Shown: piece after piece, positions 7,051 through 51,808 of the stretch
Position numbering within the stretch: position 1 is the stretch's first letter
Layout: each line of letters opens with the position of its first letter
Assembly: GCA_943787295.1 (NCBI GenBank)
Contig: CALSLW010000002.1
Coordinates: 586,189 to 650,188 of the forward strand
Direction: 5' to 3'
DNA: 64,000 nt
Source of the DNA: an uncultured Flavobacteriaceae bacterium
Lineage (GTDB): Bacteria > Bacteroidota > Bacteroidia > Flavobacteriales > Flavobacteriaceae
The notes under the pieces: model-generated
The model's input: only the letters and a program-made list of their open reading frames with translations
What the model was told of the DNA's origin: nothing
Database searches by the model: none
Made by a program: the position numbers and the translations under genes

Positions 7051-10000
7051 CTGTAAACTAATTTCGGTTGGATCGTCAACAATATTGTCATCTTGGTCAT
7101 CTCCATCGTCACTATAATCATAAACTTCATCGTCGTAATTAAATGCTGATCCCGATACCCTCACGCTGTTAATAATTTCACCTGAAAGAATATCAGATTG
7201 TGTAATGAAATAATTAGCTCTAAATAATAACATTCCACCAGGAGCTATTGAGTTTTCTGATGATCCTTCCGATGAAGATACCAAGTATGGATTAGTTGTA
7301 AGATAAATTGTTGTTCCATATCCATTTGACATAAAGTCTTGAATTACAAGATTGTCGATTCTAACATTTCCTGTATTTTCAATCATAATATCAAATATTA
7401 TCTCGTCTCCTACTATAGAAATATAATCATCTGATGTTGAGGTAACCGTTTTTGTAACTTCAAGAGATGGGTTAGGAGAAATTAAAACTACGGTTGGATC
7501 ATCTAATATGTTTCCATCATTATCATCACCATCATCCGAAACATCGGATGTTTGAATCGTACCATCTACATTTTCTGCAGTTGCTAAAATAGAATTTACT
7601 ATTCTCCCAGTATCGGCTGCTGTTTGTTCAATTGTGTAGAAAGCAATATATGATGCAAATTCTCCTATTTTAAGTTCTCCCTCTAATGAACCTAAGGATG
7701 AACCTGTGAAAAATGGGCCATTACTTAAGCTTAATAGATTGCCATTACCATCTGTCATTGTATCAACCAATGACAAATTAGTTAAGATTGTATTACCCGT
7801 ATTTTCAATTGATATTTCGAATAAAATCATATCCCCCGTATCAATAAAATCATCATTGTTATTTTCAATTGATGCTACTTTAGTTACTTCAAGTGATGGT
7901 ACTTCTTGCAGATAAACAACCGTAGGATCATCCAAAGTATTGCCATCAGTGTCATCTCCATCATCACTAATATCTATTATTCTAGCCAATTGATTTGGAC
8001 CTGTTGCAGATGCCTCTACTGTATTAATTATTTGTCCCGAAATAATGTCTATATCCTTGATGATATAGAATCCAATGTAAGTGGCGGTTTCTCCTTTAAT
8101 CAAAATACCTTCTGAAGATCCTTCTGAAGATCCGGAGAAGAAAGGTCCATTACTTAAAGTAAGTATATTGTCGTTTCCATCTGTTAGCGTGTCGACTATT
8201 TGAAGATCACTCAAAGTTGAATTTCCTCTATTTTCAACAGTAATTGTATATGTAATTATGTCTCCAGCCCCAATCTCATTATCTCCATTATCAGTAACCT
8301 CAGCTGTTTTAGTTACTTCCATAGCAACATTAGAAACTGTGAAAATCTCTGTTAAATCATCTTGAGTATTTCCATCTGTGTCATCGCCATCATCACTTAC
8401 ATCTGAAACGTCACCTATGTTTCCTGGACTATTTCCTCTAAATACAATAGTGTTTCTAATAACTCCTGAATCTGCAGCTCTTTGGCCAATAATATAGCTT
8501 GCTGTATATGTTGCTGTTTCTGATGGTTGAAGAATTCCTTCGGGTGAATTTAGAGATGCTATATCAAAGTTTGGTTGAGTCGTTAAAATTATTTCTCTTC
8601 CACTACCATCTGTGAGGGTATCGATATATGATAATCCACTTACAACTATATTCCCTTTATTTTCTACTGTAATTATATAGTCAATTCTGTCGCCCAAATC
8701 ATTAATATCATTTCCATTAGTATCTGTTATGGTAGCTAATTTTGTAACCTCTATCTCTGGAAGGGATAAAATTTCAATAACTGTTGGATCATCTGTGGTA
8801 TTTCCATCAGTATCATCTCCATCATCACTAATGTCCGAGACGTCATTGGTATTTCCTGGACTTGATGCATTTACTGTTACACTATTAACAACTCTACCTG
8901 TTCCAGCATCACTATTCGAAATCACATAAGTTGCAGAGTAAGTAGCACTTTCACTGGGGTTCAATGAGCCTGGGGAGGATCCCTGGGTAGAAGAAACAAA
9001 GAGTGGCCCAGAAGATAACTGAAGAACATTATTATTACCGTCTTTTAGAGTGTCAATTAGTGTAATTGATGAAAGTTGTGTAGAGCCTGTATTGTTTATA
9101 GTAATCGTGTAAACAATGGTGTCACCAGCGTTTACACTTCCGTCTCCATTATCAATGGTGTAAGCTGTTTTAGTTGCTTCAATTGATTTATTTATATCAA
9201 AAATAACAACAGTTGGATCGTTTGTAGTATTGCCGTCGGTATCATCACCATCATCACTTATATCGGAAACATCGTTACTATTACCAGGACTGCTTCCTGT
9301 AACCGTAACAGAATTATTTACACCACCTGAATTTACATCTTGCTGTGTGATTTGATAAGTTGCGTTGTAAGTTGAGACCTCTCCTGTTAAAATTGTACCC
9401 TCTGCAGAAGCATTGGAATTTGACACAAAATTAGGTCCAGTAGTGAGGTTTAAAGAATTTCCATTTCCATCCGTTAAAGTATCAACTAAACTTAATGTAT
9501 TGATAGTAACGTTACCAGTGTTTTGAATTGTTATGGTATAATTGATTGTATCCCCTGCACCATTTGACCCATCTCCATCATCAGTGATTGTATACGTTTT
9601 AGTAACCTCTATTATTCCCAACGGAGCTATTAAAACTATGGTGGAATCATTAGTGGTGTTTCCATCAGTGTCGTCACCATCATCACTTTGGTCACTTACA
9701 TCATTAGTGTTTCCAGGGCTACTACCTGTTACTGTTACAGTATTTTCAATTTGCCCACTCAAGGAAGCTGCATTAGAAATTAGATAGCTTGCGCTGTAAG
9801 TTGAAACCTCATTTGGAACAATTGATCCTTGAGGTGAGCCATTAGAGTTCGATACAAACGTTGGTCCAGAGGTAAGAGTTAAAACATTTCCATTACCATC
9901 GGTTAATAAATCTACAAGACTCAATGAGGTAATACTAGAATTCCCGGTATTCGCGACTGTGATAGTATAATTGATGGTATCGCCCTCCCCGTTTATTCCA

Positions 10001-12181: not shown

Positions 12182-12946
12182 TCAATCCCAGGGAATTTTA
12201 TCTATAAATGTAATTGTAGGATCATCGATGGTGTTACCGTCAGAGTCATCACCATCATCAGAAGTGTCTGTTACATCATTGGTATTCCCTGGAGAAGATG
12301 CCGTAACAACAACAGTGTTAGATGTTCCTCCTGCATCAACTGCAGCCTGTGTTATAGTATATGATGCTATATAAGTAGCTACTTCGCCTAGAGTCAAGGT
12401 CCCTTGACTTGATCCTGCACTAGAAGAAGTAAAGGTTGGACCGCTTGTTAAGGACAATGATCCACCGCTTCCATCGCTAAGCGTATCTACTAAGGTTAAG
12501 TTTGATAAACTCGTGTTACCCTTATTCTCTACCGTTATGGTATATACTATCGTATCTGCTAAATCTACAATACCATTACTATTATTGTCTATTGTTGTTG
12601 CTGTCTTGGTGGCCTCTATCTCAGGAAGTGGAGTAATCTCAACAACTGTTACATCATCTTCAGTATTGCCATCACTATCGTCCCCATCATCTGAAGTGTC
12701 TGTTACATTATTAGTCTGTCCTGGACTACTCGCCGTAGCTAATACACTGTTGTTTACACTCGAAGTCAACGCTGCTGCTGAACTAATAATATAATAACCA
12801 CTATAGGTCGCTATCTCATCTGGCTTCAATGTGCCAGGTGAAGAACCTAATGTAGTTGATGAGAACGATGGACCGTTGGTTAGTGTAAGCGATCCGCCAC
12901 TACCATCTGTTAAAGTATCTACTAAAGTTAGACCTGTTAACGTCAC
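12182..12946 (-). CDS. Fragment of the giant repeat adhesin gene
   Basis: Same repeats. An extra base in the GGG run at 12191-12193 creates the stop ...FIDKIPWD*; removing it restores [46 protein letters not shown], which continues into ORF 6721-12081. Confidence 0.8.
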   Translation of the reverse strand: [254 protein letters not shown]

Positions 12947-13013
12947 ATTGCCCTTGTTCTCTACTGTAATGGTATAATTGATTGCGTCAGACGCTCCTGT
13001 ATCACCATCACCA

Positions 13014-15548
13014 TTATCGGTTACTCGCTGCAGTCTTAGTCACCTCTATTGAACTAGACGCTGTTATGTCTGTTACTGTTGGATCATCTGTAGTGTTACC
13101 ATCATTATCATCACCATCATCACTCATGTCGCTTACATCATTACTATTGCCCGGACTACTAGCAGTCGCTGATGCCTGGTTCGATAAGCCTCCTGCATCT
13201 ACTGCAGCTTGGGTAATGATATAAAGTGCACTATAACTAGCTGTCTCTCCTACTTTGAGCGTTCCTTGTGCTGAACCTTGTGAAGACCCTGAGAACGATG
13301 GACCACTGTTTAAACTAAGTGTTGTACCCGAAGCATCGCTCAATACATCAGCTACTGTTAAACTAGATAAGGTTACATTTCCGTTGTTAACCACAGAGAT
13401 CGTATACTGAACTACATCGCCCTTACCTACTACTCCATCTCCATTATCAGTAATCGCTGATGTCTTAGTAACCTCTAGCGATGGACTATTATCTATACTT
13501 GTATCGGTAGTGTCATCCTCCGTATTACCATCACTATCATCTCCATCATCTGAAGTGTCCGTTACATTGTTACTCTGACCTGGACTACTTCCAGTTACTA
13601 AAACACTGTTGCTAACACCACCTGTATCCAAGGCTGCCTGGGTAATGGTATAACTCGCCGTATAGGTCGCCGTCTCTCCAACCATTAACGTGCCTTGTGC
13701 TGAAGAAGCTGTTGAACTAGTAAAGATTGGTCCACTTGTTAAACTAAGCGGTGAACCATCTCCATCCAATAAAGTGTCGGTTAAGCTTACTCCGCTTAGG
13801 GTTACATTACCCTTATTCTCCACTGTAATGGTGTAAACTATCGTATCCCCTAAATCTGTCGAACCACTTGTGTTATTGTCGATGACTGATGCTGTCTTAG
13901 TTGCTTCTAGTTCGGATGAACGACTAAGAACTACTACTGTATTATCATCTTGGGTTTCTCCATCACTATCGTCACCGTTATCACTACGATCTGTAACATC
14001 ATTCGTGTTTTGTGGAGAGGATGCCGTTGCCATTACCGTATTCACAACACTTCCACTATCCACCGCATCTTGTGTGATAGTATAGGTTGCTGTATAACTC
14101 GCTATCTCACCAACAATTAATGTGCCTTGAGCCGATGAAGCTGTCGAACTATTAAACGTTGGACCACTTGATAAGGATAATGATCCTCCGTCTCCATCGG
14201 TTAAAGTGTCTGCTAAACTAAGTCCTGATAAAGTTACATTACCCTTGTTCTCTACTGTAATGGTGTAAACTATCGTATCCCCTAAATCATTGATGCCATT
14301 ACCATTATTTTGGATAACAACCGCTGTCTTAGTTGTCTCTAGTATTGGATTTGGATTAATTGCCAAGATAGTCGCATCATCAGTAGTATTACCGTCAGTA
14401 TCGTCTCCATCATCTGATACATCGCTAAGACCGCCTGGATTAACTGTGCTACTAGCTGTTACTGTTACACTGTTGATTAATCCTCCTGCATCTACCACAG
14501 CCTGTGTAATAACAAATGTGGCTGCATAGTGCGCTGTCTCATTTGGCTTAATCGTTCCTTCTGAAGATCCTAAATCTCCAAAGTTAAATGTAGGTCCACT
14601 ACTCAGTGTTAATGTATTTGATAATGCATCTGTAAAGGTATCCACTAGTAAAGGATCTGTAATATTTACATTACCCTGGTTCTCGATCTTTATCGTATAA
14701 TTAACCGTATCTCCTACGCCTAAAACTCCATCTCCATTATCAGTAACCGTTCCTTCTTTTGTTACCTCCATTTGAGGACTAGACGTAATATTAACTACCG
14801 TTGGATCATCAGTTGTATTACCATCACCGTCGTTGCCGTTATCCGATACATCGGTAACATCATTACTGTTACCTGGAGTACTGGCTATTGCCTGGGCTGT
14901 ATTGTTTACACTTGGCGTATTCTCCACTGCCGAACTAATTGTATAAGTAGCAGTATAAGTAGCAATCTCCCCTGAGATTAAAGTGCCTTGTGCTGATGAA
15001 CCACTATTAGAAACAAACCTTGGGCCACTATCTAAACTTAAAGGTCCTCCATTACCATCAGTCAATGTATCACTTACAGTTATACTACTTAGGGTAATGT
15101 TTCCTGTGTTGTGTACCGCTATGTTGTAAACAATAACATCTCCCTGATCAGTCTTGCCATTACTATTGGTGTCATTAACTATAGCTGTCTTAGTAACCTC
15201 TATAGATGAATCTGAACTCGTTAAAACTACTGTCTGATCGTTTGTCGTATTACCATCACTATCATCACCATCATCCGATACATCAGTAACATCATTTGTG
15301 TTGCCTGGAGTACTAGCCGTTGCAGATACACTGTTATTTACCGATCCCGTATTAGCCGCATTCTGACTTATCGTATAAGTCGCTGTATAAGTAGATACCT
15401 CGCCTATAGCTAAACTACCTTCTGCTGAAGAAGCACTGTTTGAGTTAAAGGTCGGACCTGATGATAAACTTAATGAACCACCTGATCCGTCAGTTAGAGT
15501 ATCTGTTAAGGATAAACCTGATAAGGGTAACACTACCCGTATTGGCAA
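13014..15548 (-). CDS. Fragment of the giant repeat adhesin gene (inside duplicated copy A)
   Basis: Near-identical to 17805-20339 in the intact ORF. An extra base near 13019-13026 and another at about 15525 break the frame. Confidence 0.8.
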   Translation of the reverse strand: [844 protein letters not shown]

Positions 15549-16240
15549 CAGTTATCGTATAAAACAATTACATCCCCGCTGATCATTATTCCCATTACCA
15601 TTAGTGTCTACTACGGATGCCGTCTTGGTGACTTCAACGCCTCCACTAGATTGTGTATTGACTATTGTTGGATCATCTACGGTATTGCCATCACTGTCAT
15701 CTCCGTCGTCACTGAAGTCTCTGTAACATTTATTGCTCTGCCCTGGGGTAGTAGCAGTACCCGTAACTATGATTGCTGATCGATCCCGTACTAGGCTGCG
15801 TTCTGAGCATTATCGTGTATAGGTTGCGGTGATAGGTTGCTACTGCCTCCTGATTTGCTAGACTCTGCGCGTTGTGAACCGAACCTGATCGAGGACACTT
15901 GTGAAACGTAGGTCCGCTGCATCCAACGATAACTGCATGTACCGTTGCCGTCAGGTAAGAACATCACTTATTGTTACATCCTGTAAGATCGATGTGTCTC
16001 CTGTATTGTTTACCGTGATAGGATATACAACAGTGTCATTAACGTCATTTGTAGCACCATTAGTACCGTCTCCATTATCTATTACAGTTCGCTAGTCTTG
16101 GTTACTCTCCATCGAAGGATCTGGGTATCATTGATCCACATCTGTCGGATCATCCTCAGTATTACCATCACTGTCATCCCCGTCATCACTCTGATCAAAT
16201 ACATCATTGCTGTTACCTGGACTACTCGCCGTTGCTGTAG

Positions 16241-17011
16241 CTATGTTGGAGATTTCAGTGCTACTAAAGGAAGAAGGAACAATATAATAAGCTTGGTAAG
16301 CTGGCTGTTTCTCCTGCTAATAATGACTCCTAGCCCTGACCCCTGATCAGAACCAGAGAAGTAAGGTCCGTTACTCATTACTAAACTGTCCCCATTACCA
16401 TCAGTTAGACTATCGGTAACCGTTAGACTTGAGAGTGTTACATTACCCTTGTTCTCAACAGTGATTACATAGTTAATTACATCTCCTGGGCCTGTATAAC
16501 CATCTCCATTATCAGTCACTGAAGCTGTCTTGGTAACCTCTAACACTGGGACAGGATCAATCGTTACTACAGTTTGATCATCCTCAGTATTACCATCACC
16601 GTCATTACCATTATCTGATATATCAGTAACATTATTGTTATTACCAGGACTACTTGCAGTAACCGTTACTCGGTTGTTTATTGAAGGTGTATTGGCTGCT
16701 GCATTGGATATAGTATAAGTGGCTGTGTAAGTTAAAACTCCTGTCGCTTGAAGAGTAGCCGCAGATGACCCTGTAGTAGCATTAGTTAATGAAGGCCCTG
16801 ATGTGAGTGATAAATTACCTCCATCACCATCAGTCAATACATCGCTTAGTGATATATTAGAAAGTGTTATGCCTCCAGTATTCTCTACCGTTATGGTGTA
16901 CACTATAATATCACCAGCTCCAGTATTACCATCCCCGTTATCTATTACTGCTGCTGTTTTTGTAGCTTCTATTTCTAGGTTCAGCAGTAGCCAAAACAAC
17001 TGTATGGTCAT
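16241..17011 (-). CDS. Fragment of the giant repeat adhesin gene (copy A)
   Basis: Same repeats as 20981-21745, bounded by indel-rich sequence. Confidence 0.7.
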   Translation of the reverse strand: [256 protein letters not shown]

Positions 17012-41976: not shown

Positions 41977-42053
41977 GGTCCTATAGCTCAGTTGGTTAGA
42001 GTAGCTGACTCATAATCAGTTGGTCCCTGGTTCGAGCCCAGGTGGGACCACCA
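41977..42053 (+). tRNA. tRNA with CAT anticodon (Met or Ile2), CCA encoded
   Basis: GGTCCTA acceptor pairs with TGGGACC; anticodon loop CTCATAA; T-arm CCTGG TTCGAGC CCAGG; ends ACCA. Confidence 0.93.
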
Positions 42054-42061
42054 ACAAAATT

Positions 42062-42092
42062 AAGCCTTCACGTAAAGTGGGGGCTTTTTTTA
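42062..42092 (+). terminator. Terminator downstream of tRNA
   Basis: AAGCCttCACgtaaaGTGggGGCTT followed by T-run. Confidence 0.7.
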
Positions 42093-42196
42093 TTTATAAA
42101 AGTCATAAAAAAGTCATATCAGCACTATATTTCATTTGTCGATTAACACCAGTAAAACCCTCTAAATCTTTAAAAGACGTCAGATAATGAAAACAA

Positions 42197-42449
42197 GCTA
42201 CCGTTTCAAGTCCCTTTAATACTTTTAGCATACTGGCACTCTAAGGCAGAAACTCCAAAATCATTTGATGTTTTATGTTTTGTTTTATTTGTTCCCACAA
42301 TAATTTATTTTGTGACTCTAGGATAGAGATCAAACAATTCCTTTTTATAGTATCAGGGTTTGTCAGATTATTAATTAGTAATAGTGCTATACCTTACTTA
42401 AAATCTTATTGATTTTGTAATTATACAACTCAAATAACATTGGATATTT
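42197..42449. repeat. 253-bp near-identical direct repeat, copy 1 (contains orphan 3' end of the DoxX-like gene)
   Basis: Matches 45108-45360 at offset 2911 with only a few substitutions. Confidence 0.92.
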
Positions 42450-42595
42450 TTCAACATATATTTTCAATTGTGATAATTCCTTAATATTTTTTTCTTTTTC
42501 ATAATTTGAAATTAAACAGTCTAGAGGTTTAAAGGTTTTCATTTTTTTATCGGCAATGAACTCGTAATAATTTAATAATGTTTTACAAGTCCAAT

Positions 42596-44171: not shown

Positions 44172-44417
44172 TCAAAAACCAAAATCAATTGGTTCGTTTA
44201 GACTATGGCTCGCTGTTTGAATTTTTGGACAAACATAAGGCATGAGTTTAATCAACAATTCTATCCTTTCCTTAGGGTCAAGTTTTTCAAAATGAGACTG
44301 CACCTGAGAAATTTCATCAAACACTAATTCTTTCAATACCGCTCTGACTTCTTTAGTCAATCGATTTGGAGTTCCTTTTTTTCTGCCTCCGTATTTTACT
44401 GCTGCAACTGTTTCCAT
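44172..44417 (-). CDS. Small basic protein of mobile-element type
   Basis: METVAAVKYGGRKKGTPNRLTKEVRAVLKEL...; adjacent to RHH-like ORF. Confidence 0.55.
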   Translation of the reverse strand: METVAAVKYGGRKKGTPNRLTKEVRAVLKELVFDEISQVQSHFEKLDPKERIELLIKLMPYVCPKIQTASHSLNEPIDFGF

Positions 44418-44437: not shown

Positions 44438-44581
44438 TTAATTACTTTGTTCTAACTCGTTTAATAATCTTGACCTGCAATAAGCCGAAACAGATAAATT
44501 GTCTGACAATGCCAAAGCAGTTAATTTCTGTTTGTCCGAAGGCTTAATTCTCAAATTAATTATCTCATCTAAATATTCCAT
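44438..44581 (-). CDS. 47-aa RHH/MobC-like protein
   Basis: MEYLDEIINLRIKPSDKQKLTALALSDNLSVSAYCRSRLLNELEQSN* read by eye; below the 60-aa cutoff of the track. Confidence 0.5.
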   Translation of the reverse strand: MEYLDEIINLRIKPSDKQKLTALALSDNLSVSAYCRSRLLNELEQSN

Positions 44582-44784: not shown

Positions 44785-45237
44785 ATGATGAGAGAATCAC
44801 TAAAAAACATAACGGTATATTCCCTGAGCCTTTTGTATATAGGGGTGGGGATTAAACATTTTACCGACATGGATTTTTTCCTTGTTATCGTTCCTCCCTA
44901 TATCCCATATCCCGAATTAATGGTTTATATATCAGGTCTATTTGAAATTGTTTTGGGGGCTTTGTTAATTCCAAGGAAAACTCGAAAATACGGAGCTTTG
45001 GGGTTGCTTGCTTTATTGATTGCCGTTTTCCCTGCAAACATTTATTTATTTACCTCTGAGATAGCACAAAACACATTCGGAATCTCAAGACAGGATGCAT
45101 TAATTAGGCTACCGTTTCAAGTCCCTTTAATACTTTTAGCATACTGGCACTCTAAGGCAGAAACTCCAAAATCATTTGATGTTTTATGTTTTGTTTTATT
45201 TGTTCCCACAATAATTTATTTTGTGACCCTAGGATAG
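44785..45237 (+). CDS. DoxX-like small membrane protein
   Basis: SLLYIGVGIKHFTDMDFFLVIVPPYIPYPELMVYISGLFEIVLGALLIPRKTRKYGALGLLALLIAVFPANIYL. Start moved to 44785 because upstream codons translate the tRNA-like scar. Confidence 0.75.
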   Translation: MMRESLKNITVYSLSLLYIGVGIKHFTDMDFFLVIVPPYIPYPELMVYISGLFEIVLGALLIPRKTRKYGALGLLALLIAVFPANIYLFTSEIAQNTFGISRQDALIRLPFQVPLILLAYWHSKAETPKSFDVLCFVLFVPTIIYFVTLG

Positions 45238-45360
45238 AGATCAAACAATTCCTTTTTATAGTATAAGGGTTTGTCAGATTATTAATTAGTAATAGTGCTA
45301 TACTTTACTTAAAATCTTATTGATTTTGTAGTCATACAACTCAAATAACATTGGATATTC
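45108..45360. repeat. 253-bp direct repeat, copy 2
   Basis: See 42197-42449. Confidence 0.92.
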
Positions 45361-45560
45361 TTGAATAAACTTCTTCAATCTTAACAATTGATCTACATTC
45401 TTTTGACTTTTATAAAAAGTAATCAAAAAATCTAAAGGTGGGTGATTAAATCTTTCATGATCAATAACAGTATTTGCTATTCCCGTTTTACAATCACTAT
45501 ATGAGATTTGCCTGATATTATAAACTATTACATCTACTAAAATAAATAAGATAATTGTCT

Positions 45561-46730: not shown

Positions 46731-47057
46731 GGATATTAGAATCCCTGAGTTTGATCCGTGAGGTTAACAAAAAACGAACAATTGCATCCAGAATCGGTAA
46801 TGATTCTTTATGGATAAATGAAAAGGATGAAAGAGGACAATATGTACCTACATTTGTAAGGTACATCTATTAAATTGAATAAAGGATATAGACCTTCCTA
46901 AAACACAAAATTATAGACATAAAATCCCTCTACAATAATTGAAGAGGATTTTGGGAAAAAAGTATTTCCCCAGTTACAAGAAACCTCAACCTGTAAATAC
47001 TGATATACTAATCAAATCAAAATATTTAAAGAAAGTATATCAACCCTTCACCTATCT

Positions 47058-47270
47058 TCATTCTGATACACTTTGATTATTTAACCTCTTAACTGAAGAA
47101 TTCCCTTTCAAACTATTCTCCCACTCTAATAAATCCTTTTCTGTGATGTATTTTGAATGAGTTGATACTTCTATCATCTTCAATCCTCTATTTCTTCTCC
47201 AATCTTCTATGGTTACTCTATCTACTCCATAGAGTTCCATTAAATCCTTTTTACTCAATCTTTTTTCCAT
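47058..47270 (-). CDS. Excisionase/MerR-like helix-turn-helix protein (copy 1)
   Basis: RLSKKDLMELYGVDRVTIEDWRRNRGLKMIEVSTHSKYITEKDLLEWENSL; paralogue at 50294-50476. Confidence 0.75.
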   Translation of the reverse strand: MEKRLSKKDLMELYGVDRVTIEDWRRNRGLKMIEVSTHSKYITEKDLLEWENSLKGNSSVKRLNNQSVSE

Positions 47271-47445
47271 AAACTTTAATCTCCTCTTTTTCTAAAAGTT
47301 CTCTAAACTTCTTATCATACATTTCTCTATCTCCTGATATTCTGTACTTCTCAAGTTTATGAGATAAATTTTTAATCAAGACAGACTTCTTCTTTAATAG
47401 TTCTACCATATGTCTTGCTTGTTCATCCGTTATCTTTTCTTTCAT
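47251..47445 (-). CDS. 64-aa charged helical protein (copy 1), overlaps the HTH gene
   Basis: MKEKITDEQARHMVELLKKKSVLIKNLSHKLEKYRISGDREMYDKKFRELLEKEEIKVYGKKIE; paralogue at 50457-50651 conserved at protein level. Confidence 0.75.
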   Translation of the reverse strand: MKEKITDEQARHMVELLKKKSVLIKNLSHKLEKYRISGDREMYDKKFRELLEKEEIKVYGKKIE

Positions 47446-47483
47446 ATTATTTCCTTTCAGAGTATTTTTAAAAACAGTAATAA

Positions 47484-47515
47484 CCTCGTACTTGAAATAC
47501 TTAATCAGTTCGAGG
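47484..47515. promoter_or_regulatory. Conserved hairpin upstream of xis-like operon (copy 1)
   Basis: CCTCGtACTtg...tCAGTtCGAGG; same arms at 50688-50719. Confidence 0.6.
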
Positions 47516-47947
47516 TTGATACTCTTTATTTTAAACTTTTCTTTTATTTAAAACTAACTACTACTTCACAATTAGATATAGTGAGTCCATTAAGGGAAAT
47601 TCCCTTTTAAAAAACTATTTCCATTTTTCAGTTGAATCTAACAGACACTCAAACAAGAATTCAACCTATCTGCATTTTTACGAGTTCAGACCTTTCTTCT
47701 TTACCTCTCGGAACACTAATGACTGGTTTTACCTATCGGTGAGTGTTGGTCATTATTGGGTACTTCCCCCATGTGTCAGGTGTAGTATCTCGGTAGATTA
47801 AGTATTTCTTAAAGTAATCTACAACTCAGTAGAACAATTGGTTCTATATATAAGTATTAGAAACTTTAGAAAACGTAAAAAAATGTGAGAAAAAAGATGA
47901 AAATAACTTCTGCCAAATCTAACAGAAGTTGTTAATACTCTATTTTA

Positions 47948-47996
47948 GTACCCATAAACTTTTGATAGTACCCAAGAGGTACTTAATTTAGTACCC
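47948..47996. repeat. GTACCC iterons (copy 1)
   Basis: GTACCC at 47948, 47968 and 47991, with inverted GGTACT partner: AGTACCcaagaGGTACT. Confidence 0.7.
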
Positions 47997-48057
47997 AAGG
48001 GTGCTAATATTTATTATAGATTATTGAATATCAATATATAATAATATGGTATTGGTA

Positions 48058-48071
48058 CTGGAGGCACCACA
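48058..48071. repeat. Degenerate att core related to tRNA 3' end
   Basis: CTGGAGGCACCACA vs CAGGTGGGACCACC (10/14, ungapped); starts at the C of GTAC, 64 nt after third iteron. Confidence 0.55.
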
Positions 48072-48133
48072 TTTTAACTCCGTAAGCCATTGATTTACAG
48101 GGTCATATTGTTATAATTGTAAGACTGAAGAGT

Positions 48134-48214
48134 ATGGAAAATAAAATAATACATCAAGTCGTTGTTTTGATAATTATTGTCATTGCTATTATTCTTTCAA
48201 AATTCGTAATTTAA
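48134..48214 (+). CDS. 26-aa single-TM microprotein upstream of SulP
   Basis: MENKIIHQVVVLIIIVIAIILSKFVI*; ends 5 nt before the SulP ATG. Confidence 0.45.
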   Translation: MENKIIHQVVVLIIIVIAIILSKFVI

Positions 48215-48219
48215 TACCC

Positions 48220-50043
48220 ATGAAAAACTTTTTTGAATTTGATTTTAGTAACATCCGTGGAGACCTCTTTGGAGGGCTGACTGCGGGGATTGTAGCATTA
48301 CCGCTCGCACTTGCTTTTGGTGTGAGTTCTGGACTTGGTCCAAGTGCAGGACTCTATGGAGCTATCTTTGTTAGTTTCTTTGCTGCACTCTTTGGAGGCA
48401 CGCCAACACAAATATCAGGACCTACTGCGCCCATGACGGCGGTGTCCCTTGTTTTTATTGCTGAAATGCTTGCTAGGTTTGATGGCAGTATAGAGGCTGC
48501 CCTGCCGACCATTCTATCGGTATTCTTACTTGCAGGACTTATTCAAATCCTCTTAGGGATTATTGGTATCGGCAAATACATACGTTATATTCCCTACCCT
48601 GTCGTCTCTGGCTTTATGACTGCCATAGGCGTTATTATCTTAGTTACACAAATAGCCCCAACCATGGGATATTACGTAAAAGAAGATACAAGCTTTGTAG
48701 AGAAGTTTAAACCCCAGGCAGAAGAAATCATATTAGAGAATATCTTGAAAGAAGAGATGGGAGAAGGGATACTCGTTTTAGAAAACTTTGAAACTACCAT
48801 CGATCGTGCTGAAAAGGTATCAGAACAAGATATAATGATGGAGGCTAAAACCTTAGCAGGTCGAAAATCTTCTGGCGTCTTGGGCACAATAAAAATACTA
48901 CCTCGTATTCTAGGTAACATCAATTACCTTGAGCTCTGTCTTGCACTTTTAACCATTGTAATAATCTATGGATTTAAATGGGTTACCTCTACAGTACCAA
49001 GTACGCTTGTGGCGCTGTTTGTCGTCTCATTTGGAGCGTACGCTTTAGGTTTAGACTATCGTCCAATAGATTCTATACCCAGTGGGTTACCAATACCGCA
49101 GTGGGGATTATTTGTCTCCTTTGGGATAGAGACCGTAACTCTTTATATTTTTACTGCAATTACCTTAGCCCTGTTGGGGGCAATCGATTCGCTTTTAACT
49201 TCTGTTGTGGCCGATAACATGACTAAGACTATCCACAATCCAAACAAGGAACTTGTAGGACAAGGAATAGGAAATGCTTTTGGAGCACTCTTTGGGGGTA
49301 TCCCTGGAGCAGGTGCCACTATTCGTACCGTAGTAAATATTAACTCAGGAGGGAAGACACGCCTTTCGGGAATGGTTGCTGGTCTATTGTTACTATTCAT
49401 TCTCTTGGGCATTGGACCAATCGCTTCTCAAATACCTGCAGCTGTACTAGCTGGGATTTTAATTACAGTTGGAATAGGAGTAATGGACTACAAAGGATTA
49501 AAGGCTATTCCTTACATGCCAAGATCTGAAGTCTTCATTTTAATTGTCGTGTTAGTTTTATCGTCTGTTTGGAATCTGGTTTATGCCGTGGGGATTGGTC
49601 TTGTGATTGCCTCGCTAATGTTCATGAAGATGATTGGAGACAAGGCTGCAGAGAGCTTTAATATACAGCCGCTAAAGAAGGAAGGCGTCTGGAAGGATGA
49701 AAAGAGAATTAAGAAGGGAGACAAGGTTTTTCTAAAGCATTTAGAGGGACCTCTGTTTTTTGGTTCTACCTCGAAGTTTACTGAAGTGGCCAAGCAAATT
49801 CCGAAGGACAGTGAAAAAGTCGTTTTTCGAATGGATCGAGTTCCCTATATCGATCAGTCTGGACTCTACGCTTTAGAATCTGTTATCCTCGGTTTTATTC
49901 AAGACAATATAGAGGTAGAAATTGTAGGCCTTCAGAAGCAGCCTCAATACATGATGGAGAGGATTGACATTATCCCTGACCTTATTCCAAGACATAACTT
50001 ATTCAAATCAATCGAAGACTACATCAACACAAAAGACGATTAA
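48220..50043 (+). CDS. SulP family inorganic anion transporter with STAS domain
   Basis: RGDLFGGLTAGIVALPLALAFGVSSGLGPSAGLYGAI..., FGGTPTQISGPTAPMT, C-terminal STAS (VVFRMDRVPYIDQSGLYALESVI). Confidence 0.95.
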   Translation: MKNFFEFDFSNIRGDLFGGLTAGIVALPLALAFGVSSGLGPSAGLYGAIFVSFFAALFGGTPTQISGPTAPMTAVSLVFIAEMLARFDGSIEAALPTILSVFLLAGLIQILLGIIGIGKYIRYIPYPVVSGFMTAIGVIILVTQIAPTMGYYVKEDTSFVEKFKPQAEEIILENILKEEMGEGILVLENFETTIDRAEKVSEQDIMMEAKTLAGRKSSGVLGTIKILPRILGNINYLELCLALLTIVIIYGFKWVTSTVPSTLVALFVVSFGAYALGLDYRPIDSIPSGLPIPQWGLFVSFGIETVTLYIFTAITLALLGAIDSLLTSVVADNMTKTIHNPNKELVGQGIGNAFGALFGGIPGAGATIRTVVNINSGGKTRLSGMVAGLLLLFILLGIGPIASQIPAAVLAGILITVGIGVMDYKGLKAIPYMPRSEVFILIVVLVLSSVWNLVYAVGIGLVIASLMFMKMIGDKAAESFNIQPLKKEGVWKDEKRIKKGDKVFLKHLEGPLFFGSTSKFTEVAKQIPKDSEKVVFRMDRVPYIDQSGLYALESVILGFIQDNIEVEIVGLQKQPQYMMERIDIIPDLIPRHNLFKSIEDYINTKDD

Positions 50044-50293
50044 ATGTTAGCTGCTCAACTCTGAAATAACTTCTGTTAGATTTAACATAAGTTACCCTAT
50101 AATTTTCCTTAGGAAGAAAAAATTAACCCCGATATAAAATCCACTCCGAAAAGGGTTTAGGGGAAAAGTATTTTCTCAGTTAAAAGAAACCTCATCTTTG
50201 AAATACTGATATACTAATCAATTCAGAAGATTTGAAGAGAGTCTATCAAATCTTCTTATTCCTTCATTCTGATACACTTTGATTATTAAACCT

Positions 50294-50476
50294 CTAAACT
50301 GAAGAATCTTCTTTTAAACTTCTTTCCCACTTCAATAACTCCTTCTCAGTGATGTATTTTGAATGAGAGGATACTTCTATCATATTTAATCCTCTGTTTA
50401 TTCTCCAATCTTCTATGGTTACTCTATCCACTCCATAGAGTTCCATTAAATCCTTTTTACTCAATCTTCTTTCCAT
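50294..50476 (-). CDS. Excisionase/MerR-like helix-turn-helix protein (copy 2)
   Basis: MERRLSKKDLMELYGVDRVTIEDWRINRGLNMIEVSSHSKYITEKELLKWERSL. Confidence 0.75.
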   Translation of the reverse strand: MERRLSKKDLMELYGVDRVTIEDWRINRGLNMIEVSSHSKYITEKELLKWERSLKEDSSV

Positions 50477-50651
50477 ATACTTTTATCTCTTCTTTCTCTA
50501 ATAGTTCTTTAAACTTCTTGTTATAGGTTTCTCTATCTCCACTTGTTCTATACTTCTCTAACTTATCTGAGAAATTCTTTACTAAGATGGATTTCTTCTT
50601 TAATAGTTTTACCATATGTCGTGCTTCTTCCTTACTTATATTTTCTATCAT
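50457..50651 (-). CDS. 64-aa charged helical protein (copy 2)
   Basis: MIENISKEEARHMVKLLKKKSILVKNFSDKLEKYRTSGDRETYNKKFKELLEKEEIKVYGKKIE. Confidence 0.75.
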   Translation of the reverse strand: MIENISKEEARHMVKLLKKKSILVKNFSDKLEKYRTSGDRETYNKKFKELLEKEEIKVYGKKIE

Positions 50652-50687
50652 ATTATTTCCTTTCAGATTTAATTAAAAATGTAATAA

Positions 50688-50719
50688 CCTCGTACTTGTA
50701 ATACTATATCAGTTCGAGG
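50688..50719. promoter_or_regulatory. Conserved hairpin upstream of xis-like operon (copy 2)
   Basis: CCTCGTACTTGTAATACTATATCAGTTCGAGG. Confidence 0.6.
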
Positions 50720-51084
50720 TTGATACTCTTTATTTTAAACTTTTAATAATCGTTCAGTATAAATTAGATACACCAAACCCCTTAGAGTTTTCAAACTCTC
50801 TATAAACTTGAATCTTACACTTCTTCTGACCAGTTCATTGTTCCCCATATCAGATTTATAATAAAATCATTTTTGTAACTACCGGTGAAACCTCAACTAT
50901 TATTTATAATCTACTAACCGATGTCTTTCCCACTAACTAACTTTCGCCCCTCATGGGTGAACTCCTCTTTACCCCATGTTGGAGAGAAGGTTACACTTAT
51001 AAGTATAGAAAGTTTTAGAAAACGATAAAAAATGATTGAAAATAGTTCAGAATTAACTTCTGTTAGATTTAACAGAGGTTGTTA

Positions 51085-51141
51085 GTACCCCACCAAATAA
51101 CTTAGTACCCAAAAGGGACTAAAACAGTACCCTGGGGTACT
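51085..51141. repeat. GTACCC iterons and AGTACCC-TG-GGGTACT palindrome (copy 2)
   Basis: GTACCC at 51085, 51105 and 51127; palindrome 51126-51141. Confidence 0.75.
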
Positions 51142-51194
51142 ATAGGTTCATTTATATATACTGTAAATCAGGTAGTTATAAATAGTAATGAGTA

Positions 51195-51208
51195 CAGGTG
51201 GGACCACC
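51195..51208. repeat. attR-like copy of tRNA 3' end
   Basis: CAGGTGGGACCACC is identical to 42039-42052 in the tRNA. Confidence 0.85.
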
Positions 51209-51214
51209 CATAGA

Positions 51215-51258
51215 TAAAGGCGTTAGAAGAGATTTTCTTCTTTCGCCTTTTCTTTTTT
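51215..51258 (+). terminator. Strong hairpin terminator downstream of attR
   Basis: AAAGGCGttAGAAGAgattttTCTTCTttCGCCTTT followed by T-rich run. Confidence 0.8.
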
Positions 51259-51421
51259 GTCCCCAGATTTGTCCCTTGTTTTTTCTCTGTCGATGACTAA
51301 CCCCTGATTTTGTGTAGATCTTTGAAGTATCTTTGAGACTAGTAATACCAATGGTTTGGAGCGTTTTGAACAGAAAACAGACGACTCTCCTTAATATCTG
51401 CTATTGATTAAACTAAAAACT

Positions 51422-51808
51422 ATGGATGTAAGACAACAATGGGCACAATTTTTAGACGCATATGACTGGAACTACTTTATAACTTGTAGAACACCATACA
51501 AGATCTACACTCGCACAGTATCTTCTTGGATAGATAAGCTTTATGGCAACTCTTTAAAAGTAGATAAGGTTTTCTATGTAGCAGAAAGAGATAAAGGAGA
51601 TTACAGTAATAATCATGTTCATATGCTTATTGGTACTAACTCGAGCATAACTTATCCAGAGTTAAGACACGCACTAGGCAATATCAGCGTTGGAGACTAT
51701 CAAGAAGTTTATGATAGAGCATTAGTTTGTAAGTATGTCACAAAGCATATTGATAGAGGAGTTGATTACGAGCTTACTTTCAGGCATAACATTCCTTCAA
51801 ACAAATAA
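51422..51808 (+). CDS. Small HUH endonuclease / rolling-circle Rep-like protein
   Basis: WNYFITCRT (motif 1-like), NNHVHMLIG (HUH), ALVCKYVTKHI (YxxK); ATG at 51422 preferred over the track's TTG. Confidence 0.6.
   Translation: MDVRQQWAQFLDAYDWNYFITCRTPYKIYTRTVSSWIDKLYGNSLKVDKVFYVAERDKGDYSNNHVHMLIGTNSSITYPELRHALGNISVGDYQEVYDRALVCKYVTKHIDRGVDYELTFRHNIPSNK

Follow-up and report, generated by a model that had tools for sequence, protein, structure and literature searches.

CIMEs are att-ended units that have lost their integration and transfer genes and keep attL and attR, and their accretion in tandem is established (PMC5704250). Tandem islands are also found at the ssrA gene of Dehalococcoides, some of them without integration genes and with discordant cargo and integration modules, and a fosmid related to these islands carries parB and mom in its integration module (PMC3146451). 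Tycheposons are tRNA-bordered elements of aquatic bacteria that harbor a tyrosine recombinase and cargo genes (PMC10872708). A literature search with the terms tried returned no paper on islands of the kind described below.

The island considered here lies in a window of 64,000 nucleotides (the whole stretch of DNA analysed; contig CALSLW010000002.1, positions 586,189 to 650,188, assembly GCA_943787295.1) from an uncultured Flavobacteriaceae bacterium, whose draft genome is 89% complete. A SulP transporter gene is flanked in it by two copies of a module, termed module 1 (W1, left of SulP) and module 2 (W2, right of SulP), and a third copy is located elsewhere in the same genome (C1:1088294). 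The modules are probably the right, att-proximal control ends of small tRNA-inserted integrative elements of NS5-group marine Flavobacteriaceae, and the window island is probably a composite produced by one crossover. The grounds for this reading, all taken from the DNA itself, are the order and conservation of the parts, the cores at tRNA ends, the matching arm words at both ends of integrase-bearing relatives, purifying selection and the structured leader of types B and C. In the following, L-numbers denote contig loci and G-numbers genomes, and the distribution of the module refers to a sampled set of genomes and contigs. The features of the island are listed in window coordinates, with the strand given for stranded features.

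41977-42053, plus strand: tRNA-Met (CAT) gene found by ARAGORN; its 3' end forms the island's left att side
42054-42199: Met-type left end with a terminator hairpin, without arm repeats or integrase; matches L037, L046, L019, L023 and L063
46919-47030, minus strand: left segment of module 1, recurring at 50118-50230 and, in L008, at several cassette ends
47058-47270, minus strand: 70-aa HTH gene of module 1, encoding a putative excisionase (RDF); PF12728, phrog_66, dN/dS 0.13
47251-47445, minus strand: 64-aa gene of module 1, whose product is predicted to fold as a two-helix hairpin (AlphaFold pLDDT 85.6)
47446-47865, minus strand: type-A leader of module 1, non-coding; 94-100% identical within type A, 49% to type B
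47905-47930: 26-bp palindrome of module 1; copies that have a different right end cease to align locally at 47930-47931
47947-48008: GTACC arm repeats of module 1, with the word of the two GGGTACT repeats beside Met-type integrases
48055-48070: tRNA-Phe-type att core, GTACTGGAGGCACCAC
48071-48124: Phe-type element left end with a terminator-like hairpin, without arms; resembles the sequence 3' of tRNA-Phe in L016
48220-50043, plus strand: SulP transporter cargo gene (PF00916, E 1e-74, and STAS)
50068-50093: 26-bp palindrome that closes the SulP cargo; homology to L045, L048 and L008 begins here
50118-50230, minus strand: left segment of module 2, a sequence repeat of that of module 1
50294-50476, minus strand: HTH gene of module 2, 60 aa, with an in-frame TAG relative to module 1
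50457-50651, minus strand: 64-aa gene of module 2, 78% amino acid identity to that of module 1
50652-51010, minus strand: type-B leader of module 2, with a structured RNA domain at 50806-50995 (covariance model, covariation)
51055-51080: 26-bp palindrome of module 2
51082-51144: GTACC arm repeats of module 2
51192-51207: att core of tRNA-Met type at the island's right end

Comparison of the Two Modules

Sequence comparison within the window bore out the direct-orientation pair on either side of SulP that a sequence-only reading had proposed. As that reading had listed, W1 and W2 alike contain the left segment, the HTH gene and the 64-aa ORF with their 20-nt overlap, a CCTCG hairpin, the TTTAGAAAACG block, the palindrome, the GTACC repeats and GTAC followed by an att core; the overlap of the two genes is kept in all 22 of the 22 copies. 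The identity amounts to 84.8% over 604 nt (46941-47540 against 50148-50744). The claim that the modules align over their full length failed, as about 300 nt in the middle are unrelated; leader identity between W1 and W2 is 49%, whereas the W1 leader reaches 95-100% with further type-A copies. Nor are the proteins more conserved than the DNA when measured by identity, which reaches 78% and 85% for amino acids against about 85% for nucleotides. Selection in place of a fresh duplication, which had also been postulated, is supported: the median of pairwise dN/dS comes to 0.16 in the 64-aa gene and to 0.13 in the HTH gene, which speaks for purifying selection on both. Between W1 and W2, dN and dS are 0.154 and 1.061 for the 64-aa gene, and 0.078 and 0.489 for the HTH gene.

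The HTH protein of W1 matches PF12728 (HTH_17) with an E-value of 4e-6 and 27.4 bits, over the Pfam cut-off of 27, that of W2 scores 19.6 bits, under the cut-off, and both match the excisionase family phrog_66 (E 9e-6 and 5e-4, respectively). No NCBIfam family was found for either the HTH or the 64-aa protein, and profile searches of Pfam, PHROG and NCBIfam returned no known family for the latter. The AlphaFold model of the HTH protein is of low confidence (pLDDT 62). In the proposed mechanism, the HTH protein would act as a recombination directionality factor (excisionase) with the 64-aa protein as its partner, while the leader would gate the expression of both genes, and the integrase would excise the element only with the operon on. 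Repressors and packaging proteins also occur among HTH_17 proteins, which was counted against the excisionase reading.

Plan of the Elements

Read from the tRNA, an intact element is composed of a tRNA gene, an integrase gene, a ParB-methylase gene, cargo, oppositely oriented HTH and 64-aa genes, the palindrome, arm repeats and a tRNA 3' end. The succession of integrase, ParB-methylase, cargo and module is seen in C1, L033, L037, L038, L042 and L043, and the module at the right end runs from the left segment through the HTH gene, the 64-aa gene, the leader, the palindrome and the arm repeats to the tRNA 3' end. The island on C1 that bears the third copy begins at tRNA-Phe and encodes a tyrosine integrase and a ParB-methylase; an integrase is also present in the relatives L034 and L047. 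The right side can be read in 21 copies of the module, and 20 of these close with the 3' end of tRNA-Phe, -Met or -Pro. The suggested link of an excision or regulatory module to tRNA ends is thereby upheld, together with the HTH_17 and phrog_66 matches and the arm words of integrase-bearing relatives; L039 is the lone readable copy without a tRNA 3' end. A comparison with integron-like cassettes was dropped because the units end at tRNA cores.

Arms are found at both ends in all eight integrase-bearing relatives examined. In units with a Met-type integrase, two GGGTACT repeats lie between the tRNA and the integrase, and the right end bears GTACC repeats; Phe-type integrase units have two TTGTTCC repeats at the left and GGAACA repeats at the right. 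In L034, a Phe core is combined with arms of the GTACC word and with an integrase that shares 58% identity with the Met type, and therefore the arms track the integrase and the core tracks the tRNA. The window island is bounded by a direct repeat of the tRNA 3' end (42034-42052 and 51190-51208, 89% over 19 nt). Examined for the features that characterize CIMEs, it has no integrase and keeps tRNA-end cores; left arm words are absent from both of its units, right arms are present, and a ParB-methylase gene is likewise absent.

Several further features were observed in the window and its relatives. The island cargo includes a NikA-like mobilization protein (44438-44581, PF21983 above the cut-off, with a relative in L045) and an 81-aa ORF (44172-44417, with a relative in L044), and a 300-nt direct repeat (42197-42496 and 45108-45407, 92% identical) lies over the 3' end of a DoxX/MauE-like gene. 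Just outside the island, a 134-aa ORF (51404-51808) with an HVHML motif and a weak REP_ORF2-G2P match (E 0.024) is possibly HUH-like. Elsewhere, the window holds a 7347-aa ORF of repeated text (17109-39152), blocks of which are echoed almost verbatim, as judged by eye, in shorter ORFs at 12182-17011, a possible recent duplication or misassembly. The Met-type L037 and the Phe-type L038 apparently carry the same two-ORF cargo (8458-9428 in both, tRNA-first coordinates), with ORFs of 199 and 124 aa whose first 25 residues are identical.

The Palindrome

The palindrome, AACTTCTGTTA-N4-TAACAGAAGTT, occupies three sites in the window, compared with no matches in 100 shuffles, and seven sites in the source genome, all within two islands. 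It also lies within the methylase gene at codons 116-124, and codons 114-125 contain no synonymous difference among six copies against 25% gene-wide, a figure drawn from few sequences and accompanied by another zero-synonymous window at codons 89-98 in the same six copies. Alignments of copies with different right sides end at its right edge, those of copies with different cargo begin at its left edge, and the flanking sequences are mixed and matched across it among copies. The palindrome appears to mark recombination breakpoints, and it is predicted to be a binding site of a ParB-type protein as well as a breakpoint. A XerCD/dif reading, suggested by the length and a possible 11-6-11 layout, was set aside as less likely: no site with up to 3 mismatches was found outside the islands of the source genome, and the half-sites are unlike the typical half-sites of dif. 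It was not rejected outright, as no chromosomal dif was identified. Viral contigs yielded no exact matches to the palindrome, the type-A word or the hairpin-2 pattern, and the 64-aa protein had no match in viral contigs or phages; a viral origin of the module was rejected on these grounds.

The SulP Unit and the Composite Island

The SulP region (48125-50053) shares 94.7% nucleotide identity with a gene on contig C1 of the relative G314. No palindrome sites were found on that contig, those of G314 being on C2, and therefore the SulP gene looks captured from a chromosome. A larger segment, 48043-50744, which covers SulP, the palindrome, the left segment and both genes, shares 96.9% identity with L036. 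There, the neighbor of the SulP unit across an assembly gap is coaX, and the tRNA itself falls in the gap. Judging by this neighbor, which adjoins tRNA-Phe in L016, L034, L038 and L047, the SulP unit appears to sit at the tRNA-Phe locus in that other genome.

An att core does follow GTAC in both modules, as had been described, but the two cores differ, with a tRNA-Phe 3' end in W1 and a tRNA-Met 3' end in W2, and W1 thus represents a tRNA-Phe core inside a tRNA-Met island. Matching att ends around the SulP unit, as its excision had been envisaged, are not found either, the left end being Phe-type and the right end Met-type. W1 through 48070 is 90.2% identical to the Phe-core L034, and W2 through 51208 is 95.1% identical to the Met-core L046. 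From order and similarity, we infer that one crossover between the modules of two elements explains the arrangement best. A Phe-type SulP unit would have joined a resident Met-type element, and the crossover, near the shared hairpin block (47540/50744), would have left one module on each side of SulP. As the W1 body is itself similar to Phe-type copies, additional exchanges have likely taken place, which was counted against this simple scheme.

An origin of the composite by ordinary accretion, with a pair of site-specific integrations at tRNA-Met and no recombination between modules, is unlikely. Such accretion is established for CIMEs (PMC5704250), and L033 contains a tandem unit without an integrase behind an integrase-bearing one; however, accretion predicts a Met-type right end on unit 1 and a Phe-type right end on the SulP unit, and the reverse is seen. 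In a draft genome, a pair of similar copies in direct orientation might also call to mind a fresh tandem duplication or an assembly artefact, an origin that is barely credible here: fresh duplication is refuted by the dS of about 0.5 to 1 between the copies, the leaders of W1 and W2 are unrelated, and an independent genome (L036) has the same SulP gene, palindrome and module order. Returning to the preferred single crossover, the independent mobility of the SulP unit is doubtful, as it has no integrase or left arms and combines a Phe-type left end with a Met-type right end. With the integrase and left arms missing in both units, the composite probably cannot move without help from another element, for example the tRNA-Phe island on C1. 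The arrangement suggests how recombination between control modules can carry a transporter gene from one tRNA locus to another.

Leader RNA

The leaders sort into discrete types A, B, C and D while the proteins stay similar. Type A displays no covariation because it hardly varies. Types B and C have a common fold of 90 pairs, 8 of which show two-sided changes (seven sequences). In an 11-sequence alignment, 97.6% of the cells pair and two-sided changes occur in 20 of 48 pairs, with the reservation that the alignment was fitted to the covariance model, which favors a paired result; this level of two-sided changes was equalled in none of 500 shuffles, and slid structures collapse. The same alignment contains 88 G-U cells against 1 A-C cell, and therefore the fold is that of the operon strand.

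The module 2 leader scores 219.8 bits with covariance model R1, whose own alignment includes this sequence. Further matches were obtained at C1:669398 of the source genome (133 bits), in G307 (48 bits) and at G311:C1 (187 bits), the last being a remnant fused to methylase sequence. In G046, a genome of another family, the hairpin-2 model gave 52.5 bits (E 1.2e-6) and the longer covariance model 108.7 bits. A search of window 46900-51300 against Rfam, taken up to E 5, gave no family apart from two lncRNA hits of chance level within SulP, and no type-B leader DNA was found in phages or plasmids. The RNA precedes the 64-aa and HTH genes in type B/C module copies; in L104, it lies ahead of an 86-aa ORF and an HTH_17 gene (24.0 bits, under the Pfam cut-off of 27), in L099 ahead of short ORFs, and in L097 with ORFs of 42, 58 and 73 aa after an integrase gene. 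That other small genes, with no HTH_17 gene, follow the RNA in L097 and L099 was counted against the excision-control reading; by eye only, these small ORFs look ribbon-helix-helix-like. The divergent copy at L097:8398-8616, elsewhere in the source genome, is situated beside integrase and AAA_25 genes.

By these comparisons, the module 2 leader is a structured RNA without an Rfam match, common to other elements ahead of small genes. A broader proposal is advanced tentatively, with somewhat less than even confidence: the type-B/C leader may be an undescribed RNA family of varied Flavobacteriales integrative elements, which would stand before operons of small, putative DNA-binding proteins, control excision and be swappable for the unrelated type-A leader in homologous operons.

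The operon and its leader might instead form an immunity or expression switch of the repressor type, with leader alleles acting like incompatibility types. The discreteness of the leader types beside similar proteins would suit such a switch, as would the co-occurrence of A and B leaders in the window, in L033 and in the G314 loci L037/L045. It is nonetheless improbable, given the excisionase-type family matches of the HTH protein, the constant place beside the att arms, and two type-A copies in the source genome (W1 and L008), by which the types are not exclusive. Far less probable still is a role in redirecting packaging, as part of a phage satellite, in which the HTH protein would resemble a terminase small subunit; the PDB profile matches that point to it, to RppC with E 0.051 and to a terminase small subunit with E 0.51, are at chance level and reflect a common HTH fold, and the viral contigs and phages lack the matches already mentioned. 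Control of excision by an att-proximal module is preferred to both.

Distribution

Besides its 3 places in the source genome, the module was found in 18 other contigs, and nearly all of these bear the label Flavobacteriaceae or uncultured Bacteroidetes. The 64-aa gene is present in 5 of 19 same-genus genomes, the source genome included, and at E 1e-6 the HTH protein matched the source genome alone among 298 genomes drawn from the order. One module-bearing record belongs to Candidatus Arcticimaribacter forsetii, which places the module hosts in the NS5 marine group, Arcticimaribacter being named in a paper on that group. A short module-bearing contig labelled Saprospiraceae (L049) is possibly misbinned. 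This uncultured marine flavobacterial group thus gains a concrete mobile-island family, and a compact structured RNA, with alignment and model, is now offered for direct tests of excision-gene control.

Comparison with Known Systems

With the structured leaders of Rfam, the present leader shares the conservation, the covariation and the place before a small operon, although no Rfam family matches here. With phrog_66/HTH_17 excisionases, the HTH protein shares a profile match, whereas the overlapping 64-aa partner and the structured leader belong to the present modules. Tycheposons resemble these elements in their tRNA borders, tyrosine recombinase and cargo, a likeness at the level of a general description. 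The Dehalococcoides ssrA islands are similar in being tandem, with some lacking integration genes; they rely on serine recombinases at ssrA, whereas the islands described here use a tyrosine integrase, insert at tRNA-Met or tRNA-Phe, and encode their ParB domain as a fusion with a methylase. CIMEs share with the window island the att-ended units without integrase in tandem at a tRNA gene. In contrast with them, the units here keep a selected excisionase-type module, and their order in the window points to a crossover between modules rather than to site-specific accretion.
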